Below, in pieces: positions 1,579 through 42,600 of a DNA stretch of 44,428 bases. Position 1 is the first letter of the stretch. Each line of letters begins with the position of its first letter. Made by a program: the position numbers and the translations under genes. Source of the stretch: Deltaproteobacteria bacterium GWF2_42_12 (GTDB taxonomy: Bacteria; Desulfobacterota; GWC2-55-46; UBA9637); the NCBI GenBank assembly GCA_001797665.1, contig MGQA01000046.1, positions 1 through 44,428 of the forward strand, read 5' to 3'. The notes beneath the pieces were generated by a model that searched no databases, had not been told where the DNA came from, and saw only the letters and a program-made list of their open reading frames with translations.

Positions 1579-3795
1579 ATGGAAGGCCAAAACCGCATAG
1601 CTGAATTAGAAACCGAAATCTCCCGCCTCAAAGCAGAGATTGAAAAGGCGCAGGAGCAGGCGCAAGAACTGGAAAAATCCCGCAGCGCAATGCTCCTTAT
1701 GCTTGAGGATTTAAATGTTTCCACTGCTCAAGTAGAGAAGGCAAAAAATGAATGGGAGGCGACATTTGATTCCATCTCCGACCCTCTCTTTATCCATGAC
1801 AAAGAGTTTAAAATTGTGAGGGCTAACAAGACTTATGCAGAGGCGGCAGGCATGACCTTCAATCATTTTATCGGCAGGCCGTATTATGAGGTATTTCCAA
1901 AGATGGAAAAACCGTTCAAGATGTGTTTAAAGGCATCAGAATTGCAGGAGGAGTTTTCCTGCCCTGTTACAAACAGAATATTTAATGTAAGGTTCTACCC
2001 CATTAAGGATATTGATAATAAACTGCTCTCTTCCATTCATATCATGGAGGATACAACAGAAAAGAAAAGGGCAGAAAAAAAGTTGAAGGACGAGATAGAG
2101 ATAACGACTCATCTCCTTATGATTGCCGATGCAACAGCGCATACGACCGATATGGATAAACTCATGCAGCAGGTTGTCCACTGCGGGCATGAGATTATGA
2201 AATGCGATGTATGCCTTTCATATCTCTGGAATGAGGAAGATAAGGTTTTTCAGCCAAGCCAGTGTTATGGCCTTAGCCATGAGATTATGCCTCTATTCAG
2301 GATAGAGCCGCTGGATAAGAAGACGGAGTTTGTTAAAAAGGCAATGGAGGGGAAGGAGACGGTAATAATTATAGAAGGTGAGAGGTTAAGAAGTTTAGAA
2401 GATAGGAGAAAAAACTCAACTTCTCAACCTCATAATTTCCCAACTTCTGCCTTTACCTGGCTTCCTGACATCAACACTCTCGCCGCAATTCCGCTTGTCG
2501 GCAAGGAAGATTATCTTGGCCTGATTATCGGCGTCTATCTGGGGACAGATTTGAAATCTGCCCCCACCTTTACAGAAAGATATAAAAAGATTATGCAGGG
2601 CATATCCCATCAGGTCTCTACAGCGCTTGAGCAGGCAAGGCTCTATAAAGAGACCGTTAATAAGTCAATGGAACTGTTCCATAAGATAGAAACAATACAG
2701 GTAATGCACGAGATAGACAGGAGCATCCTTTCAACCCTTGATTCCAAGGAGATATTGGAGATTGTTACCAGAATGATTGCAAGGCTTATTCCGTGCGACA
2801 AGGTAACGGTCAGCCTTATTGACAAGGATAGGCAGGGTTTTATCTATGGAGCCGGTTTCGGGACATATATTGTTCCAAAAGGGGCATTTGTACCGTTCAG
2901 AGAAACTACTACGACAAAGGTGGTAAAGACAGGCAGACCTCAGTATGCGGCAAATCTTGCAGAGGTGAAAGGGCTTCCTTTCCTTGAGAGAAATCTTGTC
3001 AAGGAAGGATTTATTTCCCATATAAGGATTCCCCTTATTGTAAAAGGTGAGGTGATAGGGGTGCTGTCAGTTGGCGCAAAAAGACATTCTGCGTTTACGC
3101 CAAACGACATGTTAACCCTTGAAAAGATTGCCGGCCAGATAGGCGTGGCATTGGAAAATGCAAGGCTTTTAACAGACCTTAACGAGTTGTTTATGGGAAC
3201 GGTCAGATCGTTTTCCATTGCCATAGACGCAAAATCTAAATGGACCGCAGGCCATTCTGAGCGTGTAACAGGGTATGCCGTCAAGATAGCGAAAAGGATG
3301 GGGATGAACGGAAAGGCGCTGAAGGATATTGAGCTTGCAGGGTTTTTGCATGATATAGGCAAAATCGGCACTTATGAGACAATCCTTGATAAACCGGGAA
3401 AACTCACGGACGAGGAATTGGCGCTTATGAGGCAGCATCCTGCAAAAGGCGCTGAGATACTTGCGTCAATAAGACAATTAACGGACATCCTTCCGGGGGT
3501 AAAATATCACCACGAATTTTATGACGGCACAGACTATCCAGAAGGGCTTAAGGGAGAGAAAATTCCATTGATGGCGCGCGGATACTCGGCGTTGCGGATA
3601 CCGTAGATGCAATGGGCGCTGACAGGCCTTACAGGAAAGGAAGGACTATGGATGTTATCATTGCAGAGCTATAAGAGATGTTCAGGGACACAGTTTGACC
3701 CAAAGGTGGTGGAGGTGTTTTTGGATATCTTCATGCAATGGGTGACAGGCAATAGATGCCCAAATCCCGATTTAGAAAATCAAATCGGGATTTAA
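1579..3795 (+). pseudogene. PAS-GAF-GAF-HD-GYP c-di-GMP phosphodiesterase-type sensor, broken by two frameshifts
   Basis: Domains in order: coiled coil (residues 1-55), PAS (about 58-165), GAF (about 185-355), GAF (about 385-530) and HD-GYP (from about 545, with AGHSERVTGYA, FLHDIGKIG and YHHEFYDGTDYPEGLKGE). HD-GYP domains hydrolyse cyclic di-GMP. The first frame stops at 3606. The expected sequence ARILGVADTVDAMGADRPYR is readable in another frame from about 3579 to 3671, and the original frame resumes near 3670 with CSGTQFDPKVVEVFLDIF. So two compensating indels lie about 95 bases apart, the first in a GCGCGCG run, and a TAA falls between them. The final residues (NPDLENQIGI) come from a repeat hairpin. 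A second repeat sits in frame in the first GAF domain. Sequencing error is a real alternative for the indels. Confidence 0.8.
2378..2452. repeat. Word hairpin inserted in frame in the GAF domain
   Basis: The left arm carries GAGGTTAAGAAG-type words and the right arm CTTCTCAACCTC-type complements. It adds about 25 low-complexity residues (around residues 268-292) to GAF domain 1. The same words recur at 26234-26313. Confidence 0.65.
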
Positions 3796-10854: not shown

Positions 10855-10979
10855 GCAATTGAAAAATGAAAATTGCAAATATTAAATTGCAAATTTATAT
10901 AAATAAAGCTTTTTTATTAAATGGTTTTCCCCTAACTTTAAAATTTCCAATCTCCAATCTTCATTTTACAATTAGACAT
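10855..10979. repeat. Word hairpin between pilC and pilS
   Basis: The left arm (about 10857-10897) repeats AAATTGCAAAT-type words. The right arm (about 10938-10975) answers with TCCAATCTCCAATCTTC-type words. Reverse-complemented, the right arm aligns with the left over about 35 bases. It is followed at once by the pilS start, with no ribosome site visible. Confidence 0.75.
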
Positions 10980-10986
10980 TCGTAGA

Positions 10987-12678
10987 ATGTCGCTTAACCC
11001 AATGCCTGTCCAGCCAACCTTACATACCCCTTTAATGGCCAGACTCAAATGGCTCATGGTCTTAAGGGTAGTTCTGGCTATTCTATTCATCGGCATATCA
11101 AGCTGGTTTCAGTTTAAACAAACATCGCCAATTCAACCAAGCTTTTATCCAGCATACGGGATAGTAATAATTACCTGCCTTCTTACCATCCTTTATGCAC
11201 GTTTGTTCAAATGGGTTGCTGATGCAAGGCTATTTGCCTATCTCCAGATATTCGGCGATATCCTCCTTATTACGGCAACCGTGTATGTGACAGGCGGCAT
11301 AGAGAGTCTTTTATCATTTCTCTATTTTCTCTCTATAATAAGCGCAAGCATCTTGCTGAATCGGACAGGCGGTTTTTATGCTGCTTCAGCGAGCAGCATT
11401 GCATACGGGCTATTAGTGAATCTTGATTTTTATAAAGTTTTGCCAACAGGATATAAGACTATTATGGCTGGGAATGTCGAATATGAGCGCGGGGATATAT
11501 TGGCTACAGTGATGCTTAATATAATAGGTTTTTTTACTGTAGCGTTTCTTACTGGCTATCTTGCAGAGAGGACTGTAAAGATAGAAAAGGAGCTCGAGGA
11601 AAAGAAAATTGATTTTAAAAAGCTTGAGGAGATGAATAAATATATTGTAGAGAATATAAACAGCGGGATATTGACAATAGATGAAGATTCAAGGATAACA
11701 TCATTCAACAAGGCAGCCGAAAAGATTACTGGCTACAGCCTTGAAGAGGTATACAACCAGTCAATTGATGCAGTATTTACAGACTTGATGAATGAACATG
11801 GCTATTCTATGAACCCTCTGGATGAAGGTCCTTCATATTTCAGGATAGATAAGGTTTTTAAAAAGAAAGATGGGAAAGAATTGTTTCTCGGCTTCTCTGT
11901 ATCGCCGATGAAGGAAGGGGGTCATGTTATAATATTTCAGGATTTGACAAGACTGAGAGATATCGAAGAACAGCTAAAAAGGGGAGATAGATTAAAGGCG
12001 CTTGGTGAACTGGCAGCAGGCATGGCGCATGAGGTTAGAAACCCTCTTGCCTCTATCAGCGGCTCTGCGCAGGTTCTTAAACAAAGCCTCAGTTTAAGTG
12101 ATGAAGCTCAGCACCTTATGGATATTATCACAAGAGAGACAAATAGACTAAATGCCCTGATTACAGAATTTCTATTGTTTGCCAAGCCCGCAGTAAAGAT
12201 GGCAAAGATAAATTTAAGCGATATTCTTAATGACACCATAGGCATGTTCCGAAATAGTCCGGAGTCAAAAAATATTGAAATTCAAGTTAAATTAGACGAT
12301 AGCCTCGTGATAAATGGAGACGGTGGTCAGCTCAAACAGGTATTCTGGAATCTTTTTTTAAATGCCAGTCATGCAATGCTTGATGGAGGGCAATTAAAGA
12401 TTGGAGGGCATTGCTCGCATATTAAACAGCCGTTTGACTCGAACGGGGCTAAGGTTGTTGTGATAGATATTTCAGATACAGGCGCAGGAATCCCTCAGGA
12501 TAAAATAGACAAAATATTCGACCCTTTCTTTACAACAAGAGATTCTGGGACAGGGCTTGGTCTTGCTGTAGTTCATAGAATCATAGAGAATCACAAAGGA
12601 ACAATCGAGATCAGGAGCAGACAAGGCGAAGGTACAAGTTTTAAGATAAGACTGCCGATGATGAAGAGCGAGGATTAG
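10987..12678 (+). CDS. pilS: PilS-like membrane sensor histidine kinase
   Basis: The N-terminal region (about 20-205) has six hydrophobic segments, as in PilS. A coiled coil (KIEKELEEKKIDFKKLEEM) leads to a PAS domain (about 215-325). The HisKA motif AAGMAHEVRNPLASISGSAQ carries His348, and the HATPase shows NLFLNASHAM, DTGAGIPQDK, FDPFFTTRDSGTGLGLAV. PilS senses pilin in the membrane and phosphorylates PilR. Normally pilS and pilR adjoin; here a repeat-bounded gene lies between them. Confidence 0.88.
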   Translation: MSLNPMPVQPTLHTPLMARLKWLMVLRVVLAILFIGISSWFQFKQTSPIQPSFYPAYGIVIITCLLTILYARLFKWVADARLFAYLQIFGDILLITATVYVTGGIESLLSFLYFLSIISASILLNRTGGFYAASASSIAYGLLVNLDFYKVLPTGYKTIMAGNVEYERGDILATVMLNIIGFFTVAFLTGYLAERTVKIEKELEEKKIDFKKLEEMNKYIVENINSGILTIDEDSRITSFNKAAEKITGYSLEEVYNQSIDAVFTDLMNEHGYSMNPLDEGPSYFRIDKVFKKKDGKELFLGFSVSPMKEGGHVIIFQDLTRLRDIEEQLKRGDRLKALGELAAGMAHEVRNPLASISGSAQVLKQSLSLSDEAQHLMDIITRETNRLNALITEFLLFAKPAVKMAKINLSDILNDTIGMFRNSPESKNIEIQVKLDDSLVINGDGGQLKQVFWNLFLNASHAMLDGGQLKIGGHCSHIKQPFDSNGAKVVVIDISDTGAGIPQDKIDKIFDPFFTTRDSGTGLGLAVVHRIIENHKGTIEIRSRQGEGTSFKIRLPMMKSED

Positions 12679-13239
12679 AGAATTAGCGGATTAGAGAATT
12701 AGATATGGCAAAATCATTCTATGAGTTGAGAATATGGCAAAAGGGATATGAGCTACTAATGAAGATTTATGATATAACAGCCGGGTATCCAGCAGGTGAA
12801 CGATATGCGTTAACTTCGGACATACGGAGATCCGCAAACTCTGTTATCGCCAATACTGCTGAAAGTCATGGCAGGTATTATTTCGCTGATAAGGTACGAG
12901 TATTATATACCGCAAGGGGAGAGGTAGAGGAGACAAGAAGTCACCTACGGGTATCTTTAGGTAGGAATTATATATTAAGAGATGAGCTTCAATATTTAGA
13001 TAAAAATTATGAGGGATTAGCTAAAGGAGTTAGTACGTATATTAAGCGAATTAGAGATTAGAGAATTAGAAAAAACTAATACAAACGCACTAAGTATTGT
13101 TACATTGTCATTGCGAGCAAAGCGAAGCAATCTCATAGTTTAAGGGGATTACTTCGTCGCTCTGCTCCTCGTAATGACACATTATTTAATGCGTTTGTAT
13201 TAATTCCCTAATTCGCCAATTCTCTAATCCGCTAATCAA
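12672..13239. mobile_element. Putative element: word-type inverted repeats around a four-helix-bundle gene
   Basis: The left end (12675-12703) is made of ATTAGAGAATT/AGCGGATTAG words. The right end (13209-13238) is its inverted complement (AATTCTCTAATCCGCTAAT). Between them lie the gene at 12705-13061, then a perfect 13-bp pair TAATACAAACGCA/TGCGTTTGTATTA (13077-13089/13190-13202), and inside that a TGTCATTGCGAG/CTCGTAATGACA palindrome (13106-13179). The block separates pilS from pilR. Mobility is inferred from architecture; no direct repeat of a target site was identified. Confidence 0.55.
12705..13061 (+). CDS. Four-helix-bundle protein (23S rRNA intervening-sequence protein family)
   Basis: The 118-residue product fits the TIGR02436 family: FYELRIWQKGYELLMKIYDIT, ERYALTSDIRRSANSVIANTAES, then a long helix with EVEETRSHLRVSLGRNYI. 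Relatives occur inside rRNA intervening sequences and are structurally similar to Avd, the nucleic-acid-binding accessory protein of diversity-generating retroelements. Function is unknown. The ATG comes immediately after the left word repeat, without a ribosome site. No reverse transcriptase lies in the window. Confidence 0.8.
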   Translation: MAKSFYELRIWQKGYELLMKIYDITAGYPAGERYALTSDIRRSANSVIANTAESHGRYYFADKVRVLYTARGEVEETRSHLRVSLGRNYILRDELQYLDKNYEGLAKGVSTYIKRIRD

Positions 13240-15980: not shown

Positions 15981-16087
15981 CTTATTACCTCCCTGTGTTA
16001 TTAGTTTTCCTTCTTCCCTTTTGCTATTTGTAGCATAAAAGACACATATCATAAAGCATCTGGTATCGTCAATAGAAAAGTCCGCCC

Positions 16088-16268
16088 GTAAAATAGCGAT
16101 TAAAAACCTCGCTATTTTACAAACCGGCGATTTGGCTGCCATACTTCGTTGTCGGCGCATTTTTGCTCTTCACCGTATTGGTGACATACGGCTCATCGCA
16201 AAAATGGCCTCCGCCTCGTCTGACAGCCAACTTGCCGGTTTCCCCAAAAATCAAACGCTATTTTTGGG
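16088..16268. repeat. Hairpin-cruciform-hairpin element, copy 2
   Basis: Hairpin A is GTAAAATAGCGA/TCGCTATTTTAC (16088-16120). Structure B has AAACCGGC/GCCGGTTT, GGCTG/CAGCC, GCATTTTTGC/GCAAAAATG and CCGTAT/ATACGG (16121-16241). Hairpin C is CCCAAAAAT/ATTTTTGGG (16243-16268). The stem order equals copy 1 at 3762. Hairpin C recurs inverted at 44119 with one mismatch in 27 bases. Confidence 0.8.
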
Positions 16269-16330
16269 TCCGCTATGTCTATTTTGTCCATAGAAGTAAA
16301 ATAAATCTATCCCATTTCCCCCTCCTTTTT

Positions 16331-20035: not shown

Positions 20036-20112
20036 TTTCCCAAAAGTCAATGTCTATTTTTGGTGTCTATATTATTCTCTGCAAAAACCCAAATTTAATC
20101 CGTTTAATAGTC

Positions 20113-20141
20113 TTGACACACCTCTGATTCCACCTTATTAT
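20113..20141 (+). promoter_or_regulatory. Duplicated gyrA promoter (upstream copy)
   Basis: TTGACA (20113-20118), a 17-base spacer and TATTAT (20136-20141). Spacer bases next to -10 (ATTCCACCT) and the flanks match the intact gyrA promoter at 23599. Confidence 0.8.
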
Positions 20142-20146
20142 ATCAT

Positions 20147-20218
20147 GACAAAAATTGAAAATGGAAAAGATGAAAATGAGAAATTTTCTTACTTTCTATT
20201 TTCTTAATTTCCAAAGTC
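20147..20218. repeat. Word hairpin in the duplicated gyrA leader
   Basis: The left arm repeats GAAAATG-type words and the right arm TTTTCTTAATTTCC-type complements. The outermost GAC pairs with GTC next to the ribosome site. The word content is unrelated to the hairpin in the intact gyrA leader (23639-23731). Confidence 0.75.
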
Positions 20219-20227
20219 GGAGGTTTA

Positions 20228-20389
20228 ATGGCACAGGAAAAGATTCCGGTTTATATCGAAGACGAGATGAAAAAGTCTTATCTCGGGTATGCCATGAGCG
20301 TTATTGTCGGAAGGGCATTGCCAGATGTGCGTGATGGGCTTAAGCCTGTTCACAGGCGGATCCTTAGAACCTACTTACTTAGAACCTAG
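20228..20389 (+). pseudogene. gyrA 5' fragment (first 44 codons)
   Basis: Bases 20228-20361 match the start of gyrA (23747 onward) with three substitutions, keeping GGAGG and ATG. At 20361 the match stops and nine codons of repeat DNA lead to TAG, giving a 53-residue frame. It is a remnant of duplication or recombination, transcribed by a perfect promoter copy, and could make a short peptide. Confidence 0.9.
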
Positions 20390-20480
20390 GGACAACCCCA
20401 GAACCTACCAGAACCTACCAGAACCTACCAGAACCTACAGAACCTAACAGAACCTAAACAGAACCTAGGGACAACCCCCG
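20365..20480. repeat. Tandem AGAACCTACC array next to the transposase
   Basis: About eight copies of a roughly 10-bp unit AGAACCTA(CC) lie between two copies of AGAACCTAGGGACAACCCC (20380-20399 and 20460-20479). Units become irregular toward the right. There are no spacers, so it is not a CRISPR. Confidence 0.85.
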
Positions 20481-20488
20481 TATTTCTA

Positions 20489-20518
20489 TTGACAAAGCAC
20501 TTCAATTTCTAATAGAAT
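20489..20518 (+). promoter_or_regulatory. Promoter of the RAYT transposase gene
   Basis: TTGACA (20489-20494), an 18-base spacer and TAGAAT (20513-20518). The ATG at 20525 begins 7 bases after the -10 box, at the expected transcription start, so the mRNA should be leaderless. Confidence 0.68.
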
Positions 20519-20524
20519 TCGCCC

Positions 20525-21202
20525 ATGCCAAGGATAGCAAGGGTGGTAGTTCCCAACTACCCACACCATGTGACCCAGCGAGGGACGAATAAAACGAATA
20601 TCTTCATTGATGATGATGACCGCGGATATTTTCTGCAATGCCTAAAAGAGTCAGCCGTAAAGACAAAAACCAAGATATGGGTATATTGCTTGATGGATAA
20701 TCACTTTCATCTGCTTTTAGTGCCTGAAAAGGAGCAAGGGCTTGGTAAATGTCTTCATGGTGTCACTTTTAAATATGCCCAATACTTTAATCAGAAATAC
20801 GGAAGAAGCGGCAGGCTGTGGCAGAATCGGTACTTTTCATGCATAGTAGACAAAAATGAATACCTGTGGGTTGCTGCCAGATACATAGAAAGAAACCCGG
20901 TAAGAGCAAAAATAGTGAAGAGTGCAGAAGATTGGAAATGGTCGAGCGCCATGTTCCATATAAATGGCGGAGGAAGAGAATTCCCTGGTATACATGACTG
21001 GTTAGATGAATCGGAAAGAATAGAATACCGAAGATTCATTAAGGGTGAAGAAGGGGAGATAGAAAGGATAAGAAAGACTACATCTACTGGCAGGCCGTTA
21101 GGAGGTATGAAATTTGTGGAAGGGTTGGAAGGTCTGATAGGGAAGGTATTGAAACTCCAAAAGAGTGGAAGGCCAAGAAAGGTAAATAAAAACATGAAAT
21201 AA
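20525..21202 (+). CDS. REP-associated tyrosine transposase (Y1/TnpA_REP family)
   Basis: The 225-residue product starts MPRIARVVVPNYPHHVTQRG, as in this family. The HUH metal motif lies in MDNHFHLLLVP, and the Tyr-containing helix is in FKYAQYFNQKYGRSGRLWQ. Then come YIERNPVRA and a C-terminal TTSTGRPLGG segment. Such single-strand HUH nucleases act on dispersed palindromes. Flanking GGGACAACCCC (left) and GGGGTTGTCCCC (right) hairpins are its likely substrates. No ribosome site precedes it. It appears intact and is the only transposase in the window. Confidence 0.9.
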   Translation: MPRIARVVVPNYPHHVTQRGTNKTNIFIDDDDRGYFLQCLKESAVKTKTKIWVYCLMDNHFHLLLVPEKEQGLGKCLHGVTFKYAQYFNQKYGRSGRLWQNRYFSCIVDKNEYLWVAARYIERNPVRAKIVKSAEDWKWSSAMFHINGGGREFPGIHDWLDESERIEYRRFIKGEEGEIERIRKTTSTGRPLGGMKFVEGLEGLIGKVLKLQKSGRPRKVNKNMK

Positions 21203-21210
21203 TATAAATA

Positions 21211-21232
21211 TAGGGGTTGTCCCCCGCTTCCC
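21211..21232. repeat. GGGGTTGTCCCC hairpin, right flank of RAYT gene
   Basis: GGGGTTGTCCCC folds into a hairpin and is the inverse of GGGACAACCCC at the left flank. It joins directly onto a clipped toxin gene. Confidence 0.7.
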
Positions 21233-21240
21233 CGCTTCGT

Positions 21241-21408
21241 TATGATGGCAAGTTAGGAGAGTTGATTGCAGTAAAAGAGATAGAAACCGGTAAGTTTATG
21301 GTTGTTGTGTATAAAGAAATTAGTAGAGAAGATGGTTTTGTCATTACTGCCTTCCTGACAAAAAGGATTAAACAGATAGAAAGGAGGACCAAATTATGGC
21401 CGCTATAA
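21241..21408 (+). pseudogene. 5'-truncated toxin-like gene (same family as 35779)
   Basis: Family-like sequence begins abruptly after the repeat: GELIAVKEIETGKFMVVVYK then EDGFVITAFLTKRIKQIERR. The last half corresponds to the C-terminal half of the gene at 35779 (KCLCVVVKVLVGNLFIITAY). The N-terminal half is gone. Like that gene it overlaps a DUF2283 gene. A TTG-initiated frame from 21217 exists but would begin in repeat DNA. Confidence 0.65.
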
Positions 21409-21647
21409 ATATTAAAGAAGTCTTAAGCCTTACTCCGCAGCTGCTTCATATACCCTTTAAACGGATTTGGAGTAGTTACGATGAGAAGGCAGATGTTTTA
21501 TACCTGAATTTTAAAAAGCCAAGCCATGCTGATGATAGTGAACTTACTGATGATGATATTATCATCAGATATGAAAAAGGTGAGATTGTAGGTATTACTG
21601 TCCTTCATGCGAGTAAAAGGGGAAATGGCAATCTGGTTCAGAGTTAA
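21396..21647 (+). CDS. DUF2283 protein (probable antitoxin partner)
   Basis: The 83-residue product contains the DUF2283 core: WSSYDEKADVLYLNFKKP, then DDDIIIRYEKGEIVGITVLH. It has a good ribosome site (AAAGGAGG). It overlaps the clipped toxin gene by 13 bases. DUF2283 proteins often sit next to small toxin-like genes; the antitoxin role is inferred. Confidence 0.75.
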   Translation: MAAINIKEVLSLTPQLLHIPFKRIWSSYDEKADVLYLNFKKPSHADDSELTDDDIIIRYEKGEIVGITVLHASKRGNGNLVQS

Positions 21648-21648
21648 A

Positions 21649-21732
21649 GGGATGGTATCATATAATATGGGGGTTGTCCCCCGTCCCCCCCGGGATGGTA
21701 TCATATAATATGGGGGTTGTCCCCCGTCCCCC
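21649..21732. repeat. Two tandem 41-bp units with GGGGTTGTCCCC hairpins
   Basis: Units at 21649-21689 and 21692-21732 are identical (GGGATGGTATCATATAATAT, then a G5-TTGT-C5 hairpin, then GTCCCCC). They are probably non-autonomous relatives of the RAYT flank. They abut the broken end of the ABC ATPase gene. Confidence 0.9.
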
Positions 21733-21742
21733 GCTTCCCCCC

Positions 21743-21910
21743 TCGCATATCCTTACCGATATAGAACGTTTCTGCGACAGGGTTGGGATTATTGTCGGCG
21801 GTAAATTGAGATCGGTTGATAGGCTTGATAATCTATTGTTGGGGACAGCTACATTGGAGAATATATTTTTAAATGAAGTAGAAAAGGCAGGCGGAGGAAT
21901 AGAGATATGA
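21743..21910 (+). pseudogene. ABC transporter ATPase, C-terminal fragment
   Basis: Only the last 55 codons remain, beginning at the H-loop (SHILTDIERFCDRVGIIVGG) and ending LENIFLNEVEKAGGGIEI. Walker A, the signature and Walker B are gone. It overlaps the permease start by four bases, so it was the operon partner. Confidence 0.85.
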
Positions 21911-22719
21911 CCGCTATCTGGCCTATTGCAGTCATAACCTTTAAAGAAGGCATAAGAAACAGGGCAATCTATGGCATCTCCATATTTGCGCTCCTATTAT
22001 TGGGCGCCAATCTCCTTATCTCCAGCATGATTATGCAGGAAGTGGGAAAGGTGGCTGTGGACATGGCCCTATCCACTGTGTCGTTTGCCGGGCTGCTTCT
22101 TGTTCTGTTCATAGGCATTAATCTTATGGCAAAGGATCTGGATAAGAAGACAATCTATATGGTTTTGTCCAGACCTATTTCCAGATTTCAGTATATACTG
22201 GGCAAGTTTTTTGGAATGACCCTTCTTATCCTTGTTACCCTCTCTGTTTTAAGCATTTTTGCCGGCCTCTCTATCGTTATGGTTAAGATGAGTTATCCGG
22301 GCTATTTCCCAAGGTTTTCATGGTCAATGGTTGCATTGGCCATATCATTTACCACTTTGATGTTAATTCTCCTTTCAGCATTGAGCTTTCTCTTTGCATC
22401 CTTTGCATCTACATCGTTCATTACCTTAGTCCTGACCATTATCACCTACATAATTGGCCAATCCATAAGCGATGTTAAGGCGCTGGTGGAGGCTCCGCAG
22501 ATCGTTGGAATTCAGGTTTCGCCCCTGACCGTAAAAGTAGTGCAAATTGCCTACTACATCTTTCCCAATCTCTCTCTCTTTGACATAAAAACACAAGCAG
22601 CGCATGGTCTTGCTGTTTCACCCTCCTATATCTTCTGGGTAGTTTCTTACGGTTTCATTTATACCTGTATTGCAATTATTCTTGCCGCTATTATTTTCAG
22701 ACGCAGGGAGTTTCCGTAA
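21907..22719 (+). CDS. ABC-2 type transporter permease (NosY/Nat-like)
   Basis: The 270-residue protein has six hydrophobic helices and the start pattern AVITFKEGIRNRAIYGISIF common to ABC-2 permeases. DLDKKTIYMVLSRPISRFQY is a typical cytoplasmic loop. It would form an exporter with the ATPase encoded just upstream, but that gene is reduced to a fragment, so it is an orphan unless another ATPase serves it. Substrate is unknown. Its stop overlaps the next ATG (TAATG). Confidence 0.85.
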   Translation: MTAIWPIAVITFKEGIRNRAIYGISIFALLLLGANLLISSMIMQEVGKVAVDMALSTVSFAGLLLVLFIGINLMAKDLDKKTIYMVLSRPISRFQYILGKFFGMTLLILVTLSVLSIFAGLSIVMVKMSYPGYFPRFSWSMVALAISFTTLMLILLSALSFLFASFASTSFITLVLTIITYIIGQSISDVKALVEAPQIVGIQVSPLTVKVVQIAYYIFPNLSLFDIKTQAAHGLAVSPSYIFWVVSYGFIYTCIAIILAAIIFRRREFP

Positions 22720-23561
22720 TGAAACGTTTTCTTGCCGTTAGTTTGCTCTGCATCCTTCTTGCCCTTCATCTTTTTACCCTCGGAAGGGCTGCACATCAAA
22801 GAAAAACCCTTCCCAGAAATGTGGATTACAGCTATGTCCTGCCATCGCCGATATTAAAGATAACTGCACTTGAGTTTGACGGCCTTGCCTCTGACTTTCT
22901 TTTTTTACAGGCCCTGGTTTTTGAGGGAAGCACATTTGAGCGAAAAGAAAGACCAAGGGTGAAGGAATGGGAATACAGATGGATGTATAATACCTTGAGC
23001 GCGTCAACGGATTTAGACCCCTATTTCTTTGACCCTTATTACTTTGGAAATGCAAACCTAACATGGGAAGGAAATCTGATAAGAGAAACTAACACCATGC
23101 TGGATAAAGGCAGCCGTTACAGGGATTGGGACTGGATGCTGCCGTTTTATATCGGGTTCAATAATTTTTATTTTCTGCAGGATAATGAAAAGGCATCTGA
23201 ATATCTTATGGAGGCATCCAAACGGCCAAACTCGCCGAGCTTGCTGCCAACGCTTGCAGCGCGCTTGGCATATAAGGGGAAAAAAACGGAAAACGCAGTA
23301 ATATTCCTGCAGGAGATTATTAAAAAAACAGATGATGAGTCAACAAAGAAAACTTACGAAAAGCGGCTGAATGCCCTAAAAGGTATTCTATTTTTAGAGA
23401 GGGCAGTAGTTGCTTATCAGGATAGATTTAAAAAGCCACCGGAGAAATTGGATGAGCTGATGACAAAAGATGTAATAAGAGAAATCCCACAAGACCCTTA
23501 TGGCGGCGAGTTTTATATTGATAAAGACGGCTCAATAAAGACTACGAGCAATCTGAGATAA
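22719..23561 (+). CDS. Hypothetical exported protein with TPR-like helices
   Basis: I do not recognise a named family. There is an N-terminal signal or anchor (FLAVSLLCILLALHLFTLG). The body has a conserved-looking WYNTLSASTDLDPYFFDPYY-like stretch (MYNTLSASTDLDPYFFDPYY) and TPR-like helices (KASEYLMEASKRPNSPSLLP). The end, FKKPPEKLDELMTKDVIREI and PQDPYGGEFYID, resembles the pseudopilin-like tail found in type II secretion-type proteins. It is translationally coupled to the permease. Confidence 0.7.
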   Translation: MKRFLAVSLLCILLALHLFTLGRAAHQRKTLPRNVDYSYVLPSPILKITALEFDGLASDFLFLQALVFEGSTFERKERPRVKEWEYRWMYNTLSASTDLDPYFFDPYYFGNANLTWEGNLIRETNTMLDKGSRYRDWDWMLPFYIGFNNFYFLQDNEKASEYLMEASKRPNSPSLLPTLAARLAYKGKKTENAVIFLQEIIKKTDDESTKKTYEKRLNALKGILFLERAVVAYQDRFKKPPEKLDELMTKDVIREIPQDPYGGEFYIDKDGSIKTTSNLR

Positions 23562-23598
23562 CTCTCTTTTTTCCATCTTATAACATGCCTTAATAATC

Positions 23599-23627
23599 TT
23601 GACAGTCATATAATTCCACCTTATTAT
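23599..23627 (+). promoter_or_regulatory. gyrA promoter
   Basis: TTGACA (23599-23604), a 17-base spacer and TATTAT (23622-23627). A diverged second copy lies at 20113. Confidence 0.85.
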
Positions 23628-23638
23628 ATCAAGGATAA

Positions 23639-23731
23639 AATACAGGCTATAGGCTATGGGCAATGGGCTATAGGGGAAGACTAAAGGCATAGAATTTTCC
23701 TATAGCCTATCACCTATTGCCCCATGCCTGT
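23639..23731. repeat. Word hairpin in the gyrA leader
   Basis: The left arm ACAGGCTATAGGCTATGGGC and the GGGCTATAGG that follows pair with the right arm CCTATAGCCTATCACC and GCCCCATGCCTGT. It lies between promoter and ribosome site. The duplicated leader has an unrelated hairpin at the same place. Confidence 0.8.
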
Positions 23732-23746
23732 CTTTTTGGAGGTTTA

Positions 23747-26176
23747 ATGGCACAGGAAAAGATTCCAGTCTATATCGAAGACGAGATGAAAAAGTCTTAT
23801 CTCGGGTATGCCATGAGCGTTATAGTCGGAAGGGCATTGCCAGATGTGCGTGATGGGCTTAAGCCTGTTCACAGGCGGATACTTTATGCAATGCACGAGA
23901 TGGGTGTTGAGTGGAATAAGCCCTATAAAAAATCTGCCCGTGTTGTCGGCGATGTGATTGGAAAATATCACCCACATGGCGATATGGCGGTTTATGACGC
24001 TATAACGAGGATGGTTCAGGATTTTTCACTCAGATACCCCTTGATAGATGGGCAGGGTAACTTTGGCTCAATTGACGGCGATGCGCCTGCAGCCATGCGT
24101 TACACAGAGGTGAGGATGGCGAAGATAGCCAGTGCCCTCCTCTCTGATTTAGAAAAAGAGACTGTTGACTGGGGACATAACTACGACGATTCGCTGAAAG
24201 AGCCGCTTGTCATGCCTGCCGCATTTCCTAATTTATTGGTTAATGGCTCGTCAGGTATTGCCGTTGGCATGGCAACAAATATGCCTCCGCATAACCTCTC
24301 TGAGGTAATAGACGGAGTAATCCATCTCATAAATAAGCCAGATGCATCCATCAATGAATTGATGAAACTCATTCCTGGCCCTGATTTCCCGACTGCCGGT
24401 TTCATACACGGAAGGACAGGTATTAAAGAGGCATATTCAACAGGCAGGGGCATTATTCAGATGCGTGCCAGGGCAAGCATAGAAAAAAATCCACGGACAA
24501 ACAGGCAGGCAATTGTTATAAACGAGATTCCGTATCAGGTAAATAAGGCAAAGCTCATTGAAAAAATCGCAGAGCTGGTGCGGGACAAAAAGGTTGAAGG
24601 CATCTCAGACATACGGGATGAGTCTGATAGGGAGGGGATGCGTATCGTTGTTGAACTCAAGAGAGACGAAGTTGCAGAGGTAATACTCAATAACCTTTTT
24701 CTCCATACGCAGATGCAGAGCACATTCGGCATCATTAATCTTGCTATTGTTGACGGTCAGCCGAGGGTCTTAAATCTTAAGGAACTTCTTCAGCAATTTG
24801 TGAGGTTCAGAAAAGAGGTTGTAACGCGGCGCATAATATTTGAACTTAAAAAGGCAAAGGAAAGGGCGCATATATTAGAGGGTCTGAAGATTGCCTTAGA
24901 TAATCTTGACGCTGTCATAACCTTGATAAGAAAGAGCAAGGGGCCGCAAGAGGCCAAAGAAGGCCTGATGAATAAATTTAAACTCTCTGAAATCCAGGCT
25001 CAGGCCATCCTTGATATGAGACTGCAGAGACTCACTGCCCTTGAGCGGGAAAAGATTGTTGAAGAGTATAAAGAGGTCTTAAAGCTCATTAAAAGACTTG
25101 AGGATATTCTTGCCAGCGAAAAACTCCTCACCGAGGTTATTGTTGATGAGCTCAAGGAGATTAAAAAACAGTTTGGCGATGAGAGGCGAACTGAAATTAT
25201 TGAAAAGACAGGCGAGATAAAGATGGAGGATATTATTGCTGAAGAGGATATGGTAGTAACCATAACCCACGGCGGTTATATCAAGAGAAATCCAACAAGC
25301 CTGTTCAGGATTCAAAGGCGCGGAGGCAAAGGCAAGATTGGCATGACAACAAAGGAAGAGGATTTTGTAGAGAATATGTTTGTTGCCTCTACCCACAGCT
25401 ATATTCTCTTCTTTACGAACAAGGGGAAGGTGTATTCTCTCAAGGTTTATGATATACCGCAGGCAGGCACTGCCGCAAAAGGCAAGGCAATTGTCAATGT
25501 TCTTAATTTGGCTCAGAGCGAGAAGATAACTGCATTTTTGCCGGTAAAAGAATTTACAGAAGGTAAATTCATTGTCATGGCTACCAAATATGGCGTTATC
25601 AAGAAGGTAGATTTGACGACATTTACCAATATCCGCTCCGGAGGTATTATTGCCATTGGCCTTGATGAAGGCGATGAGCTTATTTCGACCATGCTGACCG
25701 ACGGCTCAAAAGAGATATTTATTGGAACGAGAGAGGGTCAGGCAATCAGATTTAATGAAGAACAGGTAAGGGATATGGGAAGGATAGCGCGAGGCGTGAG
25801 GGCGATTAATCTTGGCAAAGGTGATGTGGTTGTTGCGATGGAGGCATTAGAGGAAGGGAGAACAATCCTGACAGTTACAGAAAGGGGCTACGGCAAAAGA
25901 ACAGAATTGGAGGAATATAGGAGCCAGCTCAGGGGCGGGAGCGGGATAATCAATATCAAGGTAACAGATAAGAATGGCCCTGTGGTTGGCATTGCCCAGG
26001 TAAACAACGAAGATGAACTTATGATTACTACCAATATCGGCAAGATTATAAGGATAGCAATGAAGGATGTGTCTGTAATCGGCAGAAATACCCAGGGTGT
26101 GAGATTGATAGATGTTGAGAAAAGTGAGAGGGTGACCGGTATTGCGCCAATTGCAGAAAAAGAGGAAGAGGAATGA
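23747..26176 (+). CDS. gyrA: DNA gyrase subunit A
   Basis: The 809-residue product has the breakage-reunion domain with [32 protein letters not shown] and the catalytic Tyr119 in AAMRYTEV. The C-terminal beta-pinwheel follows, with the GyrA box QRRGGKG near residue 524, which separates gyrase from topoisomerase IV. With GyrB it introduces negative supercoils. Start 23747 follows GGAGG; a longer frame at 23717 would translate the leader hairpin. The residue matching E. coli Ser83 is Met80; the residue matching Asp87 is retained as Asp84. The stop overlaps the next ATG. Confidence 0.97.
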
Positions 26177-27090
26177 AAAAGCCAGTGGTCAGTGGTCGGT
26201 GGTCGGTGGTCAGTGGTCAGAAGATAGGAAAAGAGGTTAAGAGGATAAGAAGCTGGGAAGATAAGAAAGCAAGAATTCTTAACTTCTCAATTTCTCAACC
26301 TCTCATCTTCTGCCTTTTACTGTTCACTGTTTTTTTCGGCTGCTCCCAGGACCCTGCTCTTCCTCTGTATGAAAAGGCAGAAGAATATTTCAGCAAGATG
26401 GACTATCTAAATGCAGTTGAAGGATATAGCAGTGTTGTAAGCAAGTATCCAGAAAGCTCATATGCGCCTACCAGTCAGTATAAGATTGGTTTTATAAATA
26501 GCCATTATTTAAAAAATGTGTCAAGGGCAATGAATGCCTATGCTACCTTAATCTTACTATATCCCAAGAGTAAAGAGGTAATTCTGGCACGACAGGATTT
26601 GGCAGATATATATATAAACAGCGGAGATTATCGAAGGGCAATAGGAGAGTATCAGTGGCTTATGGAGAACGCTGGTATAGCGCAGCGCGATGATTATCAC
26701 TATCAGATAGCAGCGGCCTATCTAAAACTTACTGACCTTAGACAGGCCAGGATAGAATTTCAGGAGATTGTAAAAAATTCTCCAAATTCTCAACTTGGGC
26801 CGCAGGTTTATTATCAGATAGCAAACACCTATTACCTTGAAGGCAACTGTCAGGATGCTATAAAGGCATATGAAAATGTGGCTTTGTTTTATCCGTCAAG
26901 TCCATTTGCCAGCGAGGCAAAACTTGGCAAGGCCATGTGCATCGAAGAAATGGGCAACCTAACAGAGGCGGTTGAACTTTATAGAGAGTTAGAAAAGAGC
27001 TATCCTAATCCTGATATTATCAGGGTGAGAATAGAAGGGATAGAGTCAAGGGAGAATAAGACATTTCCTATAGCGCTAAAGGAGAACTGA
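26173..27090 (+). CDS. BamD-like TPR lipoprotein with a repeat-derived signal peptide
   Basis: After an N-terminal extension the protein has a hydrophobic stretch ending in a lipobox ([10 protein letters not shown], Cys at about residue 56) and then about six TPR/Sel1-like helical pairs: [53 protein letters not shown]. This resembles BamD/YbgF outer-membrane assembly lipoproteins. The first 55 residues are encoded by a word hairpin ([12 protein letters not shown], then [10 protein letters not shown]), so the extension and signal core derive from repeat DNA. A later start inside the repeat is possible. The ATG overlaps the gyrA stop (ATGA). Confidence 0.72.
26180..26325. repeat. Composite word hairpin encoding a lipoprotein N-terminus
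   Basis: The left arm has CAGTGGTCAG-type words then AGAGGTTAAGAGGATAAGAAG. The right arm has CTTCTCAATTTCTCAACCTCT, then CATCTTCTG and CTGTTCACTG. Arms pair in mirror order. Confidence 0.75.
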
Positions 27091-27102
27091 ACATACGATT
27101 CC

Positions 27103-27195
27103 GCAGATTACAAAAGCAGATTACACAGATTCCGACAAACCAAATTCGGTTTTTAATCGGTGAAATCGCTTTTAAAAAGTCTGTGTAATCAGTTA
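27103..27195. repeat. Word hairpin upstream of gpsA
   Basis: The left arm has two CAGATTACA words (CAGATTACACAGATT) and the right arm AGTCTGTGTAATC. The centre has an ACCAAATTCGGTTTTT-type mini-hairpin. It ends just before the gpsA ribosome site. Confidence 0.75.
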
Positions 27196-27207
27196 GAGGA
27201 GAACTGA

Positions 27208-28206
27208 GTGGAAAAGATTTCTGTTCTCGGCGCTGGAAGCTGGGGAACAACGCTTGCAAATATCCTATCTGAGAAAGGTTTTGATATAAGCCTGTGGGTA
27301 AGGGAAGAAGACCTCTGCCAGACCATGCTAAAGACACGGGAGAATGTCTATTTTCTTCCTGGCATTAAGCTTGCCCAAAATATAATTCCTACAAATTCTA
27401 TTGAAGAGGCTGTAAAGGATAGGTCTCTTATCATATGTGCAGCGCCTTCCCATGGCGCAAGAGAGATATTCAAAAAGGCAGCAGAATTCGTATCCAGAGA
27501 TTCAATTGTTGTTAGTGTGTCAAAGGGGCTTGAGCTCGCAACCCATTTAACAGTATCCCAGGTATTGAAAGAAGTTCTTCCAAAATCCACGCATAAAAAT
27601 ATTACTGTGCTTTCTGGCCCATCCTTTGCTAAGGAGGTAAGTCTGAAGCTGCCGACAGCAGTCTCTGTCGCATCCACTAAAAAGGCTACTGCAGAAAAGG
27701 TGCAGAAGACTTTTAATACAGGCTATTTCAGGGTTTATACAAATACTGATATAATTGGAGTTGAACTCGGAGGCGCATTAAAGAATGTCATTGCGATAGC
27801 GGCAGGTATATCAGATGGCCTTGGCTTAGGTATGAATGCAAGGGCAGCTTTGATAACCAGAGGCCTTGCTGAGATGGCAAGGTTAGGTGTAAGTATGGGC
27901 GCAAAGTTAGCGACCTTTTCGGGTCTGTCAGGTCTTGGGGACCTGATTTTAACATGCACAGGTGAGTTGAGCAGAAACAGGTCTGTGGGCATTATGATAG
28001 GAAAAGGCCAAAAACTCTCTGATATTCTCTCGCAAATGAAGATGGTAGCAGAGGGTGTAAATACAGCAAAGGCAGCCTATGAGCTTTCTCTACGACATGG
28101 GGTAGAAATGCCAATTACAGAACAGATTTACCATGTTTTATATAAACATAAACTTCCAAAGAGCGCTGTAACAGAGTTAATGACCAGGAGATTAAAGGAA
28201 GAGTGA
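27208..28206 (+). CDS. gpsA: NAD(P)-dependent glycerol-3-phosphate dehydrogenase
   Basis: The 332-residue product has the Rossmann motif GAGSWGTTLA (8-17), SKGLE, SGPSFAKEV and the catalytic region GVELGGALKNVIAIAAGI with the conserved Lys. It reduces dihydroxyacetone phosphate to sn-glycerol-3-phosphate for phospholipid synthesis, in the cytoplasm. The start is a GTG with GAGGAG upstream. Its stop overlaps the modA start by four bases. Confidence 0.96.
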   Translation: MEKISVLGAGSWGTTLANILSEKGFDISLWVREEDLCQTMLKTRENVYFLPGIKLAQNIIPTNSIEEAVKDRSLIICAAPSHGAREIFKKAAEFVSRDSIVVSVSKGLELATHLTVSQVLKEVLPKSTHKNITVLSGPSFAKEVSLKLPTAVSVASTKKATAEKVQKTFNTGYFRVYTNTDIIGVELGGALKNVIAIAAGISDGLGLGMNARAALITRGLAEMARLGVSMGAKLATFSGLSGLGDLILTCTGELSRNRSVGIMIGKGQKLSDILSQMKMVAEGVNTAKAAYELSLRHGVEMPITEQIYHVLYKHKLPKSAVTELMTRRLKEE

Positions 28207-29027
28207 CTCTTTACAAGAATTTCAAATTTCTAATTTCTAATTTCAAATTTCAAATCTTACTGCTTACTGCATACTGCGTACTGCTTACTACCGCAGGTTA
28301 TGCGGAGCCACAATCCCTCACCATTGCTGCCCCTGCTCAGCAGGGCATAACTACGCTCAGCGTGGCTGCTGCCTCTGACCTTTCTTTTGCCTTAAAGGAA
28401 ATTTCGCAACAATTTGAAAAAGAGAGTAATATAAAGGTTATAATATCATTTGGCTCAACAGGGGTGCTCTCACAGCAAATAGAGAATGGCGCGCCTTTTG
28501 ATATATTTTTTGCAGCTAATGAAAAATATATAAATACCCTGGAGGAAAAGGGGTTGATTATTCCAAATACCAAACAACTCTATGCTCAGGGTAGACTTGT
28601 ATTGGCTGTGCATGAGGGATTTAAGTCGAATATCAAGAACCTAAAAGACCTCCTTCAGCCGTCTGTAAAAAGGGTTGCAATTGCCAACCCTGATCATGCA
28701 CCTTACGGCATTGCAGCAAAAGAGGCTTTGCGAAAACTTGGATTGTGGGATAAACTGAAACCCAAACTTGTTTACGCTGAGAATATCCGTCAGGCTATTC
28801 AATTTATCCAAACAGGAGATGCACATGCCGGAATTGTAGCGCTCTCAGTGATTAATGTGCCTGAGGTAAAATACACAATAATAGACAATACTCTTCATCA
28901 GCCTATAAATCAGATAGTAGCTATCATGAGGACTACCAAGGCTGAAAAAGAGGCAAGAAAATTTATAGATTATGTGATTAAAGATGGAAAAGGTATTATG
29001 CAGAGATATGGTTTTGTTATGCCTTAA
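28203..29027 (+). CDS. modA: Molybdate ABC transporter substrate-binding protein ModA
   Basis: The mature part matches ModA: LSVAAASDLSFALKEISQQF, ISFGSTGVLSQQIENGAPFD, IFFAANEKYI, ANPDHAPYGIAAKEAL and IQTGDAHAGIVALS. It binds molybdate or tungstate in the periplasm for ModBC. The signal peptide is coded by tandem words: AATTTCAAATTTCT-type then TACTGCTTACTGCATACTGC-type, giving FKFLISNFKFQILLLTAYCV. A second small palindrome (CCCTGCTCAGCAGGG) adds residues before the mature fold. modB and modC lie 3.8 kb downstream beyond an inverted block of genes. Confidence 0.88.
   Translation: MTLYKNFKFLISNFKFQILLLTAYCVLLTTAGYAEPQSLTIAAPAQQGITTLSVAAASDLSFALKEISQQFEKESNIKVIISFGSTGVLSQQIENGAPFDIFFAANEKYINTLEEKGLIIPNTKQLYAQGRLVLAVHEGFKSNIKNLKDLLQPSVKRVAIANPDHAPYGIAAKEALRKLGLWDKLKPKLVYAENIRQAIQFIQTGDAHAGIVALSVINVPEVKYTIIDNTLHQPINQIVAIMRTTKAEKEARKFIDYVIKDGKGIMQRYGFVMP
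28212..28300. repeat. Word array encoding the ModA signal peptide
   Basis: TTTCAAATTTCTAATTTCTA-type words are followed by CTTACTGCATACTGCGTACT-type words. Here the words run in one direction, without a clear answering arm. Confidence 0.75.
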
Positions 29028-33528: not shown

Positions 33529-33530
33529 TT

Positions 33531-33607
33531 TAATTGCAAAATGAAGATTGTAAATTGCAAAATAGAGACAACTTTTTTTTCACTTTTCAGTTTACAATTT
33601 GCAATTT
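33531..33607. repeat. Word hairpin between modB and modC
   Basis: The left arm is AATTGCAAAATGAAGATTGT and AAATTGC. The right arm is CAGTTTACAATTTGCAATTT. Words are related to those at 10855. A longer modC frame would begin in it. Confidence 0.8.
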
Positions 33608-33625
33608 AAATTGGAGCGAAGCGAC

Positions 33626-34741
33626 GTGTCTCTTTCATTCCAAGTAAAAAAACATTTAAGGCGCTTTTCAATAGACGTAGGCTTTTCTACTGAAGAAGAG
33701 TTGACGGTATTGTTTGGCCCATCAGGGGCTGGCAAAAGTCTTTTATTGAATGTGCTCTCTGGCATCGCAAGGCCTGATAGTGGTTTTGTTAAAATTAATG
33801 ATATAGAGGTCTTTAACTCCACAACAGGAATAAATATCCCTATAAGAGAGAGAAGGATAGGTTATCTTTTTCAGGATTACGCACTTTTTCCCCATATGAC
33901 TGTATTTGAGAATATTGCCTACGGGATAAACCATCTATCAAAAAATAGGATGAAGGCAAAGGTTGAAGAACTTATAGCGCTCATGAGGCTTATTGGGTTT
34001 GAAGATAGATTACCGAAAGAGCTTTCAGGCGGGCAAAAACAGAGGACAGCGCTTGCAAGGACACTTGCAACAGAACCAAGGATACTCTTCCTGGATGAGC
34101 CTTTTTCTGCGCTCGACTATCAGGTCAGGGAAAAACTTCGGGCAGACCTCTCACTAATACATCAAAGGTATCCAATGACCACTATATTCGTCACCCATGA
34201 TCTGGAGGAGGCATTTGTCATGGGTGAGAAGATAGCGATAATAAACAATGGAAGGCTTGAGCAGTTTGGCACAAAGGACGAGGTATTTTACAAGCCAAAG
34301 ACAAGGAATGTCGCAAAATTTTTAGGTTCGAGGAATATCTTTACCGGAAGGGTCGCTTCTTTGAATGGCACAATCGCCATTATAAATAATCCTGATGTTG
34401 GAGAGATTAAGGCCTTAATAGATATAAAAGGACCACAGCTCTTGGTAGGTGAAGATGTAACATTTGGAATAAGACCTGAAGAGATTATGGTAATAAGACC
34501 TGACAGGCCGATTGATAAAAAGATTCAGGATAATATTTTAGATGGCGAGGTTGTTACAACTATTGGAAAAGGGGCAAGCCATACGGTATATTTTAAGATA
34601 AAGGGCACAGATACAAATCTTAAGATAGAGATCCCTAATTTTGCGTATAGAAAGCTCAATCTGAGTAAAGGTAAGCAGATATCCGTATCTTTAAAAAGAG
34701 AGAGTATCTGGATGATACCGGAAAAACAAGTTAAGGTTTAG
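33626..34741 (+). CDS. modC: Molybdate ABC transporter ATPase ModC
   Basis: ABC ATPase motifs: Walker A GPSGAGKS, Q-loop in LFQDYALFPHM, signature LSGGQKQRTALARTL, Walker B ILFLDEPFSALD and H-loop FVTHDLEEA. A C-terminal regulatory TOBE/MOP-like domain (about 285-370) is present. It drives molybdate uptake. GTG 33626 is chosen because family-like sequence begins SLSFQVKKHLRRFSI; an ATG at 33599 adds nine residues coded by the adjacent repeat. The last codons and stop lie in the next word hairpin. Confidence 0.93.
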   Translation: MSLSFQVKKHLRRFSIDVGFSTEEELTVLFGPSGAGKSLLLNVLSGIARPDSGFVKINDIEVFNSTTGINIPIRERRIGYLFQDYALFPHMTVFENIAYGINHLSKNRMKAKVEELIALMRLIGFEDRLPKELSGGQKQRTALARTLATEPRILFLDEPFSALDYQVREKLRADLSLIHQRYPMTTIFVTHDLEEAFVMGEKIAIINNGRLEQFGTKDEVFYKPKTRNVAKFLGSRNIFTGRVASLNGTIAIINNPDVGEIKALIDIKGPQLLVGEDVTFGIRPEEIMVIRPDRPIDKKIQDNILDGEVVTTIGKGASHTVYFKIKGTDTNLKIEIPNFAYRKLNLSKGKQISVSLKRESIWMIPEKQVKV

Positions 34742-34818
34742 GTCAAGGTTGAGAATCATCAATACCGATGCCTTGATTACTCAATAGGGGGGTTTCTTAG
34801 CCTTAACCTCAACCTTAT
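34731..34818. repeat. Word hairpin between modC and the CDF gene
   Basis: The left arm AAGGTTTAGGTCAAGGTTGAG (from 34735) overlaps the modC stop codon. The right arm is CTTAGCCTTAACCTCAACCTT. Confidence 0.8.
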
Positions 34819-34826
34819 CTTTTCAT

Positions 34827-36430: not shown

Positions 36431-36468
36431 GCAAACTATAGCAAACGATTTAAATAAGTTGACATGAT

Positions 36469-36551
36469 TCACCCTCCCCTTAATCCCCTCCCGTCAAGGG
36501 AGGGGGAAAATATTAAGTTCCCTCTCCCCTTGCGGGAGAGGGTTCGGGTGA
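36469..36551. repeat. Three-way-junction repeat (element 5)
   Basis: The closing arms TCACCC/GGGTGA (36469-36474/36546-36551) enclose CCCCTCCC/GGGAGGGG and CCCTCTCCC/GGGAGAGGG. Confidence 0.9.
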
Positions 36552-36598
36552 GGGTAACGAATTGTCTTTACTGATATAAATATCGCCAGAGTTTGTAT

Positions 36599-42440: not shown

Positions 42441-42448
42441 AAGGATAA

Positions 42449-42600
42449 ATCCGAAATTCTAATATCGAAATTCGAAACAAATCCGAATATTCAAATGACC
42501 AAAACTTCAAACAAAACAGCTTAGAAAATTTGCCCCTCATTGAATCAATCAGGGATTGATATTGTTTGGGATTTCGGATTTAGGATTTAGAATTTCTCAA
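42449..42600. repeat. Word hairpin before the radical SAM gene
   Basis: The left arm has CGAAATTCTAATATCGAAAT and CGAAACAAATCCGAATATTC. The right arm has GATTTCGGATTTAGGATTTA and GAATTTC. It ends 10 bases before the start codon; no ribosome site is clear. Confidence 0.75.

Follow-up and report, generated by a model that had tools for sequence, protein, structure and literature searches.

Hairpins built of unrelated 7-nt words at the gyrA leader of Deltaproteobacteria bacterium GWF2_42_12 and its relatives, probable insertions of dispersed elements linked to S23 genes

The 44,428-nt stretch of Deltaproteobacteria bacterium GWF2_42_12 analyzed here (contig MGQA01000046.1, positions 1 to 44,428; hereafter the window) contains two gyrA 5′ ends spaced 3.5 kb apart, each with a hairpin of tandem 7-nt words between the promoter and the ribosome site. 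Comparison with related genomes indicates that the gyrA-leader hairpins are probably insertions from several dispersed families of hairpin elements, of the type of the 23S rRNA intervening sequences (IVS) and their S23 protein, that have repeatedly hit sites where they are tolerated. The source genome (G000) is a draft in 126 contigs, about 92% complete, and represents one genus of its family; G001 and G003 represent a second genus, G002 and G004-G007 a third, and G008 is a member of the same order.

In six members of the family, the gyrA leaders are homologous in the promoter, in the A-rich segment that follows it and in the ribosome site, and these leaders together with that of G008 contain at least six unrelated hairpins of 7-nt words. 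The words are GGCTATAGG in the complete gyrA copy of G000 (copy B) and in G001, AGTAGAC in G003, GGACACGG in G004, AGCTATGG in G002, AACAGGA in G006 and AATGAGTG in G008. In pairwise alignment, the hairpins of copy B and G001 score 145 and the other pairs stay near the level of shuffled sequences, with a weak excess for copy B and G002. G004 and G006 belong to a single genus, with 5 differences in 134 gyrA bases and 86% promoter identity; even so, the two have unrelated hairpins. An alignment of gyrA leaders from related genomes, proposed as a check by the first-pass annotation of the window, thus gave the predicted picture of a conserved promoter and ribosome site around a variable hairpin. 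The leaders fold in every case despite the differing words. The gyrA gene of G003 has a one-base deletion near the sixth codon (L097 near 11022), either an assembly error or a frameshift, and its leader was kept in the comparison despite this shift. Because unrelated words replace the leader hairpin, the comparison argues that only a hairpin, or perhaps nothing specific, would be needed at gyrA. A gyrA-specific autoregulatory hairpin was ruled out, given the word hairpins at many other junctions and the dispersal of the words.

The two copies in the window are themselves a less clear case. All hairpins, word arrays, promoters and gyrA copies given here with their extents, and the transposase element described below, are on the + strand. 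Copy A has the promoter TTGACA-17-TATTAT at 20113..20141 (TTGACA 20113-20118, TATTAT 20136-20141), a hairpin of GAAAATG-type words at 20157..20203, delineated by folding and by the word-hairpin detector, and a segment at 20219..20361 with GGAGG (20219-20223), ATG (20228) and the first 134 bp of gyrA. It is a fragment: the similarity to gyrA ends at 20361, where an element of the Y1 type begins. Copy B has the same promoter arrangement at 23599..23627 (TTGACA 23599-23604, TATTAT 23622-23627), a hairpin of GGCTATAGG/GGGCAATGG words at 23637..23736 that belongs to a dispersed family, and GGAGG (23738-23742) and ATG (23747) followed by a complete open frame (23738..26176); it is the sole complete, functional gyrA of the two, with 89-92% amino acid identity within the family. 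Direct reading of the sequence bears out the first-pass description of both promoters, ribosome sites and start codons, as well as the count of 3 differences in 134 coding bases, each in the third position of its codon; in two of these cases, the base of copy A is that of the family relatives. The flanks, described as the same, are not: the 50-nt promoter regions of A and B are 72% identical, and that of copy B is 90% identical to the one of G001, in another genus, and 88% to that of G006. The coding part of G001 differs from copy B at 26 of 134 bases. The two hairpins do differ, as had been stated (alignment score 15, p 0.07 against shuffles, no clear excess). Hairpin B folds at -47.5 kcal/mol (z -4.4) and hairpin A at -16.6 kcal/mol (z -2.2), the weakest of the leaders folded. 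As a query, hairpin A found no dispersed full-length copies, with weak partial matches only, and its similarity to the leader hairpin of G006 is marginal (score 34, p 0.007 among 28 comparisons). No Rfam family matched the window above its gathering score, the best sub-threshold hit being sraA (E 0.49).

The A/B pair is a mosaic of a recent coding part and an older or foreign leader. Copy A is what remains of a truncated gyrA 5′ end that had a different hairpin, and it probably derives from a close relative or from a leader exchange; transfer from a congener, exchange of leaders and an assembly mixture are possible sources. As evidence for a hairpin swapped at a fixed position, which is how the first-pass annotation had read it, the pair is weak, since its flanks differ too and a close relative may be the source of copy A; the idea itself is upheld by the comparison across genomes, through G004 and G006 and through the other junctions discussed below. 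The mosaic, with 3 of 134 coding differences against a promoter match of 72%, and the draft state of the genome could also be accommodated if homologous recombination exchanged whole leader alleles across species and copy A were a congener allele or a chimeric strain join in the assembly. As a general explanation this seems quite unlikely, because it provides no source of new hairpins, leaves the dispersed families unexplained and does not fit other loci at which the insert has been replaced and the flanks can still be aligned.

The word families are dispersed, with patchy, genome-specific copy numbers, given here as BLAST-type segments on both strands and not as distinct elements. Hairpin B matched each of the 11 genomes searched within the order, with 2 to 62 segments per genome and 12 in its own, and the matches often span both arms; the hairpin including its loop has a second copy at G001:C107 (about 91% over 74 bases). 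The gyrA hairpin of G003 (AGTAGAC) gives 58 matches in G003, 44 in G005, 10 in G001 and none in the eight others, and that of G004 (GGACACGG) has most of its matches in G001 (54) and none in G002, G009 and G010. By the conservative detector, applied to sampled sequence, word hairpins occur at 7-15 per 100 kb in G000, G004 and G006, compared with about zero in shuffled sequence, and at 2.5-19 per 100 kb in other members of the order; none was detected in about 510 kb from eight members of the class that have no S23 above the cut-off. G019, with two S23 genes and 6.5 word hairpins per 100 kb, fits a link between S23 and hairpin density.

The pattern of different words at the same site recurs at the pilT-pilC, pilC-pilS, pilS-pilR, TPR, modA, modB-modC and modC sites, and some relatives have no hairpin there: G007 at pilC-pilS, G008 at the TPR gene and G002 after modC. 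In the window, the hairpin at the pilC-pilS-like junction (10857..10973) has other words in six relatives and an empty counterpart in G007. A TPR lipoprotein-like gene has arrays and a hairpin inside its 5′ end (26183..26311, within the site 26173-26330), consisting of CAGTGGT and AGAGGTTA words; relatives have other words, and G008 has neither array nor hairpin. A modA-like gene has two word arrays in its signal-peptide region (28218..28289, region 28203-28330), again with other words in relatives. At the modB-modC-like junction (33529..33609), the TTGCAAA words of the window also occur in G002 and G006, with others in G001 and G004; at the 3′ end of the modC-like gene (34728..34821), G006 has the same words as the window, G001 has others and G002 has no hairpin. 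A site within a gene for a sensor that has GAF and HD domains (open reading frame (ORF) 1579-3606, site 2363-2452), occupied in the window by an in-frame word hairpin (2373..2448), has unrelated inserts in G003, G004, G006 and G007, so that five genomes have five different inserts, word hairpins in some and other palindromic repeats in others. The detector also reports a word hairpin downstream of a lonB-like gene (42447..42595). The elements are thus located in mRNA leaders, between operon genes, in frame within a coding region and in signal-peptide regions; an active process that installs hairpins, postulated in the first-pass annotation, is supported by the empty sites, the dispersed copies and the S23-bearing versions described next, and its limitation to 5′ untranslated regions is not. 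The arrays of the lipoprotein-like and modA-like genes form part of the reading frame, within its first codons, and hydrophobic residues (e.g., LLTAYCVLL) are encoded by their pyrimidine-rich arms, as though signal peptides had been made out of mobile hairpins.

Some of the elements carry a gene. The S23 protein (PF05635, 23S_rRNA_IVP) is a four-helix bundle familiar from 23S rRNA intervening sequences, and the family is similar to Avd, an accessory protein of diversity-generating retroelements (PMC10053308). Between two-component genes of the pilS/pilR type, the window contains a word-hairpin element at 12670..13236 (words GGATTAGAGAATTAG) with an S23 gene in its loop (12705-13061; PF05635, 90.5 bits; best solved relative 2gsc, E 5.9e-10); its flanks are complementary (score 45), and in G006 this site holds the orthologous S23 together with the same words. 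Of the 38 S23 genes in the order, 35 have mutually complementary flanks that score no lower than the 95% level of control ORFs, and 31 score above every shuffle; S23 genes from other families of the class look much like these when inspected by eye. Although not selected for period, S23 flanks show a lag-7 identity of 0.40 versus about 0.27, with lag 14 raised too, and in 30 of 35 elements the left arm is purine-rich in the sense of S23. Words are common to S23 elements and S23-less hairpins in 17 of 31 cases, compared with 2 of 31 after shuffling (17 being the scripted count of 19 less two self-matches).

The tRNA-Leu-tig junction lacks a hairpin in G002, G008 and G009; G004 and G007 share one S23 element there (S23 94% identical), and their congener G005 has an unrelated S23 (19/62 amino acids) with other words. 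An S23 element of G009 is of the same S23 lineage as that of G004 and G007 (96/121 amino acids) and occupies a different site. Both ends of this G009 element (35 and 37 nt, >90% identical) lie in the loop of the pilC-pilS hairpin of G005, with almost no gene between them, which makes the locus an internal-deletion derivative, nested in another hairpin. Because of the hairpin-free sites and the unrelated S23 genes at the same site, the hairpins appear to arrive and to be replaced as whole units.

The alternative of rewriting in place assumes an ancestral leader hairpin selected for its structure, the words of which change when 7-nt words slip and the template is switched from one arm to the other. 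It would agree with the folding of all leaders whatever their words, with the lag-7 periodicity common to unrelated words and with the presence, at one site, of the same words in a different array order in different genera (S23 loci L072/L079). The loops differ as well, however, a word family is found again at many other places in its genome, hairpin-free sites exist, the S23 in the tig loop is unrelated between congeners and the second copy in G001 has the same loop, all of which renders this scenario unlikely. Of the two options offered by the first-pass annotation, installation or diversification of hairpins, the evidence favors the former, as insertion and replacement of whole elements.

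The insertion of dispersed elements would proceed as follows. Each element comprises two arrays, inverted relative to each other around a loop, in which a degenerate 7-nt word is repeated in tandem; some members carry S23 in the loop and are related in design to the 23S rRNA IVS, and most, including those at gyrA, lack S23 and are probably non-autonomous. Insertion would occur repeatedly where a hairpin is tolerated, in the gap between promoter and ribosome site, between operon genes and behind tRNAs, so that lineages acquire different families at one site and inherit the flanks normally; after insertion, the arrays would drift through gain and loss of words. The route may be transposition, with S23 acting in trans, and the hairpin RNA may be tolerated through RNase III, which is the enzyme that cuts rRNA IVSs. 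We infer that S23 drives the movement because of its position inside the element and because the IVS reading frame had earlier been proposed to encode a mobility component, as cited in PMC4990558, which also describes the function and origin of IVS elements as unclear. The literature consulted contained nothing direct on S23 elements outside rRNA or on word hairpins.

Several observations weigh against the insertion of S23-type elements. The mobilizing activity is putative. Neither target-site duplications nor a universal terminal repeat were found at the element ends, the comparison of empty and filled pilC-pilS sites, few in number, revealed no evident target-site duplication, and AATACA and ATACAG are enriched at some ends only (14 and 11 of 210). 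The gyrA hairpins themselves have no S23. G025 has two S23 genes and no word hairpin in 40 kb, and phylogeny confounds any link between S23 and hairpin density, nearly all hairpin-rich genomes being of one order. Finally, the detector is heuristic, and the match counts are of segments.

A further candidate for the mobilizing activity lies between the gyrA copies, namely a Y1_Tnp element of the IS200-like/RAYT type (20362..21235) with AGAACCTACC repeats and GGGACAACCCC ends, the gene of which (20525-21202) matches PF01797 (E 1.5e-13). In the region 20362-21740, this element is accompanied by a DUF2283 gene and by two direct repeats of 43 bp with GGGGGTTGTCCCCC, all bordered by the truncated gyrA on one side and by an ABC ATPase gene, apparently truncated as well, on the other; the arrangement looks like a rearrangement breakpoint or the outcome of several successive insertions. 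Y1 transposases of the type associated with repetitive extragenic palindromes (REP-associated tyrosine transposases, RAYT) usually act on hairpin elements, and the word hairpins might accordingly be considered as elements like REPs or REPINs (REP doublets forming hairpins), mobilized by the Y1 enzyme between the gyrA copies. They resemble these systems (REP/REPIN with RAYT, TnpA-REP) as intergenic mobile hairpins with a Y1 transposase gene nearby. In contrast to REP/REPIN, they have no common palindromic core and no fixed tetranucleotide across the word families, the words and the k-mers of ends and arms being family-specific, and where such hairpins enclose a gene it is S23 and not Y1, so that this explanation is very improbable.

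Among the known systems, the 23S rRNA IVSs with S23, such as that of Coxiella burnetii (PMC4990558), resemble the present elements in their complementary ends, hairpin, preferred insertion sites and sporadic distribution and in the S23 gene that some members have in the loop. The long stem formed by complementary ends is found in the 35 of 38 S23 flanks and in the leader folds; S23 in the loop, as in the larger IVSs, is found in the S23-bearing elements including 12670-13236 and not in the gyrA hairpins. Unlike the IVSs, which lie within the 23S rRNA gene, the present elements are found in mRNA leaders, gene junctions and coding regions, and they have arms of tandem 7-nt words and many dispersed copies, most of them S23-less. 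With miniature inverted-repeat transposable elements (MITEs) and other small non-autonomous mobile sequences they share the short, hairpin-forming, multicopy dispersed design, the patchy distribution, the location at gene junctions and the existence of an internal-deletion derivative. They differ from MITEs in that the families have no conserved common terminal repeat and no visible target duplication at the few sites compared, and that the putative full-length element has no classical transposase; as to ends shared with an autonomous partner, there is one clear S23 internal-deletion derivative and the sharing of words, with no universal end motif. The TAACTGA heptamers of Beggiatoaceae (PMC4679880), the patchiness of which suggests horizontal spread (PMC4679880), are similar in the 7-nt unit, the intergenic location upstream of start codons and the patchy distribution; there, however, one fixed word forms direct repeats, whereas here many words form arrays with an inverted counterpart, some with S23.

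Other interspersed repeats occur in the window. One of about 185 bp (16086-16270) has dozens of copies, many of them 85-93% identical, in the relatives searched, and two more (36465-36560 and 27097-27199) have many copies in relatives. The repeat at 27097-27199, an inverted-repeat element of 100 bp, separates the TPR gene from gpsA and is missing from most relatives.

A bolder version, which we regard as rather doubtful, takes S23 to be a mobility or synthesis factor of an undescribed class of mobile hairpins, the arms of which would be rebuilt from 7-nt words and not copied faithfully. Every family, and in part every copy, would then have its own word, and hairpin insertion would follow a new mode, either independent of reverse transcriptase or trans-acting, because the genome lacks a reverse transcriptase of the RVT_1 family. 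A resident reverse-transcriptase route had been considered and was discarded, with no RVT_1 match in the about 92% complete assembly of G000.

The comparison places S23 genes within a large dispersed set of hairpins at mRNA junctions that replace one another at fixed sites, an essential gene included, and makes the role of S23 testable by comparative genomics and simple genetics. Fast-changing arrays of 7-nt words in bacterial leaders, operon junctions and signal peptides may find an explanation as mobile hairpins, here in a group of uncultured groundwater bacteria in which the DNA gyrase gene is among the sites.

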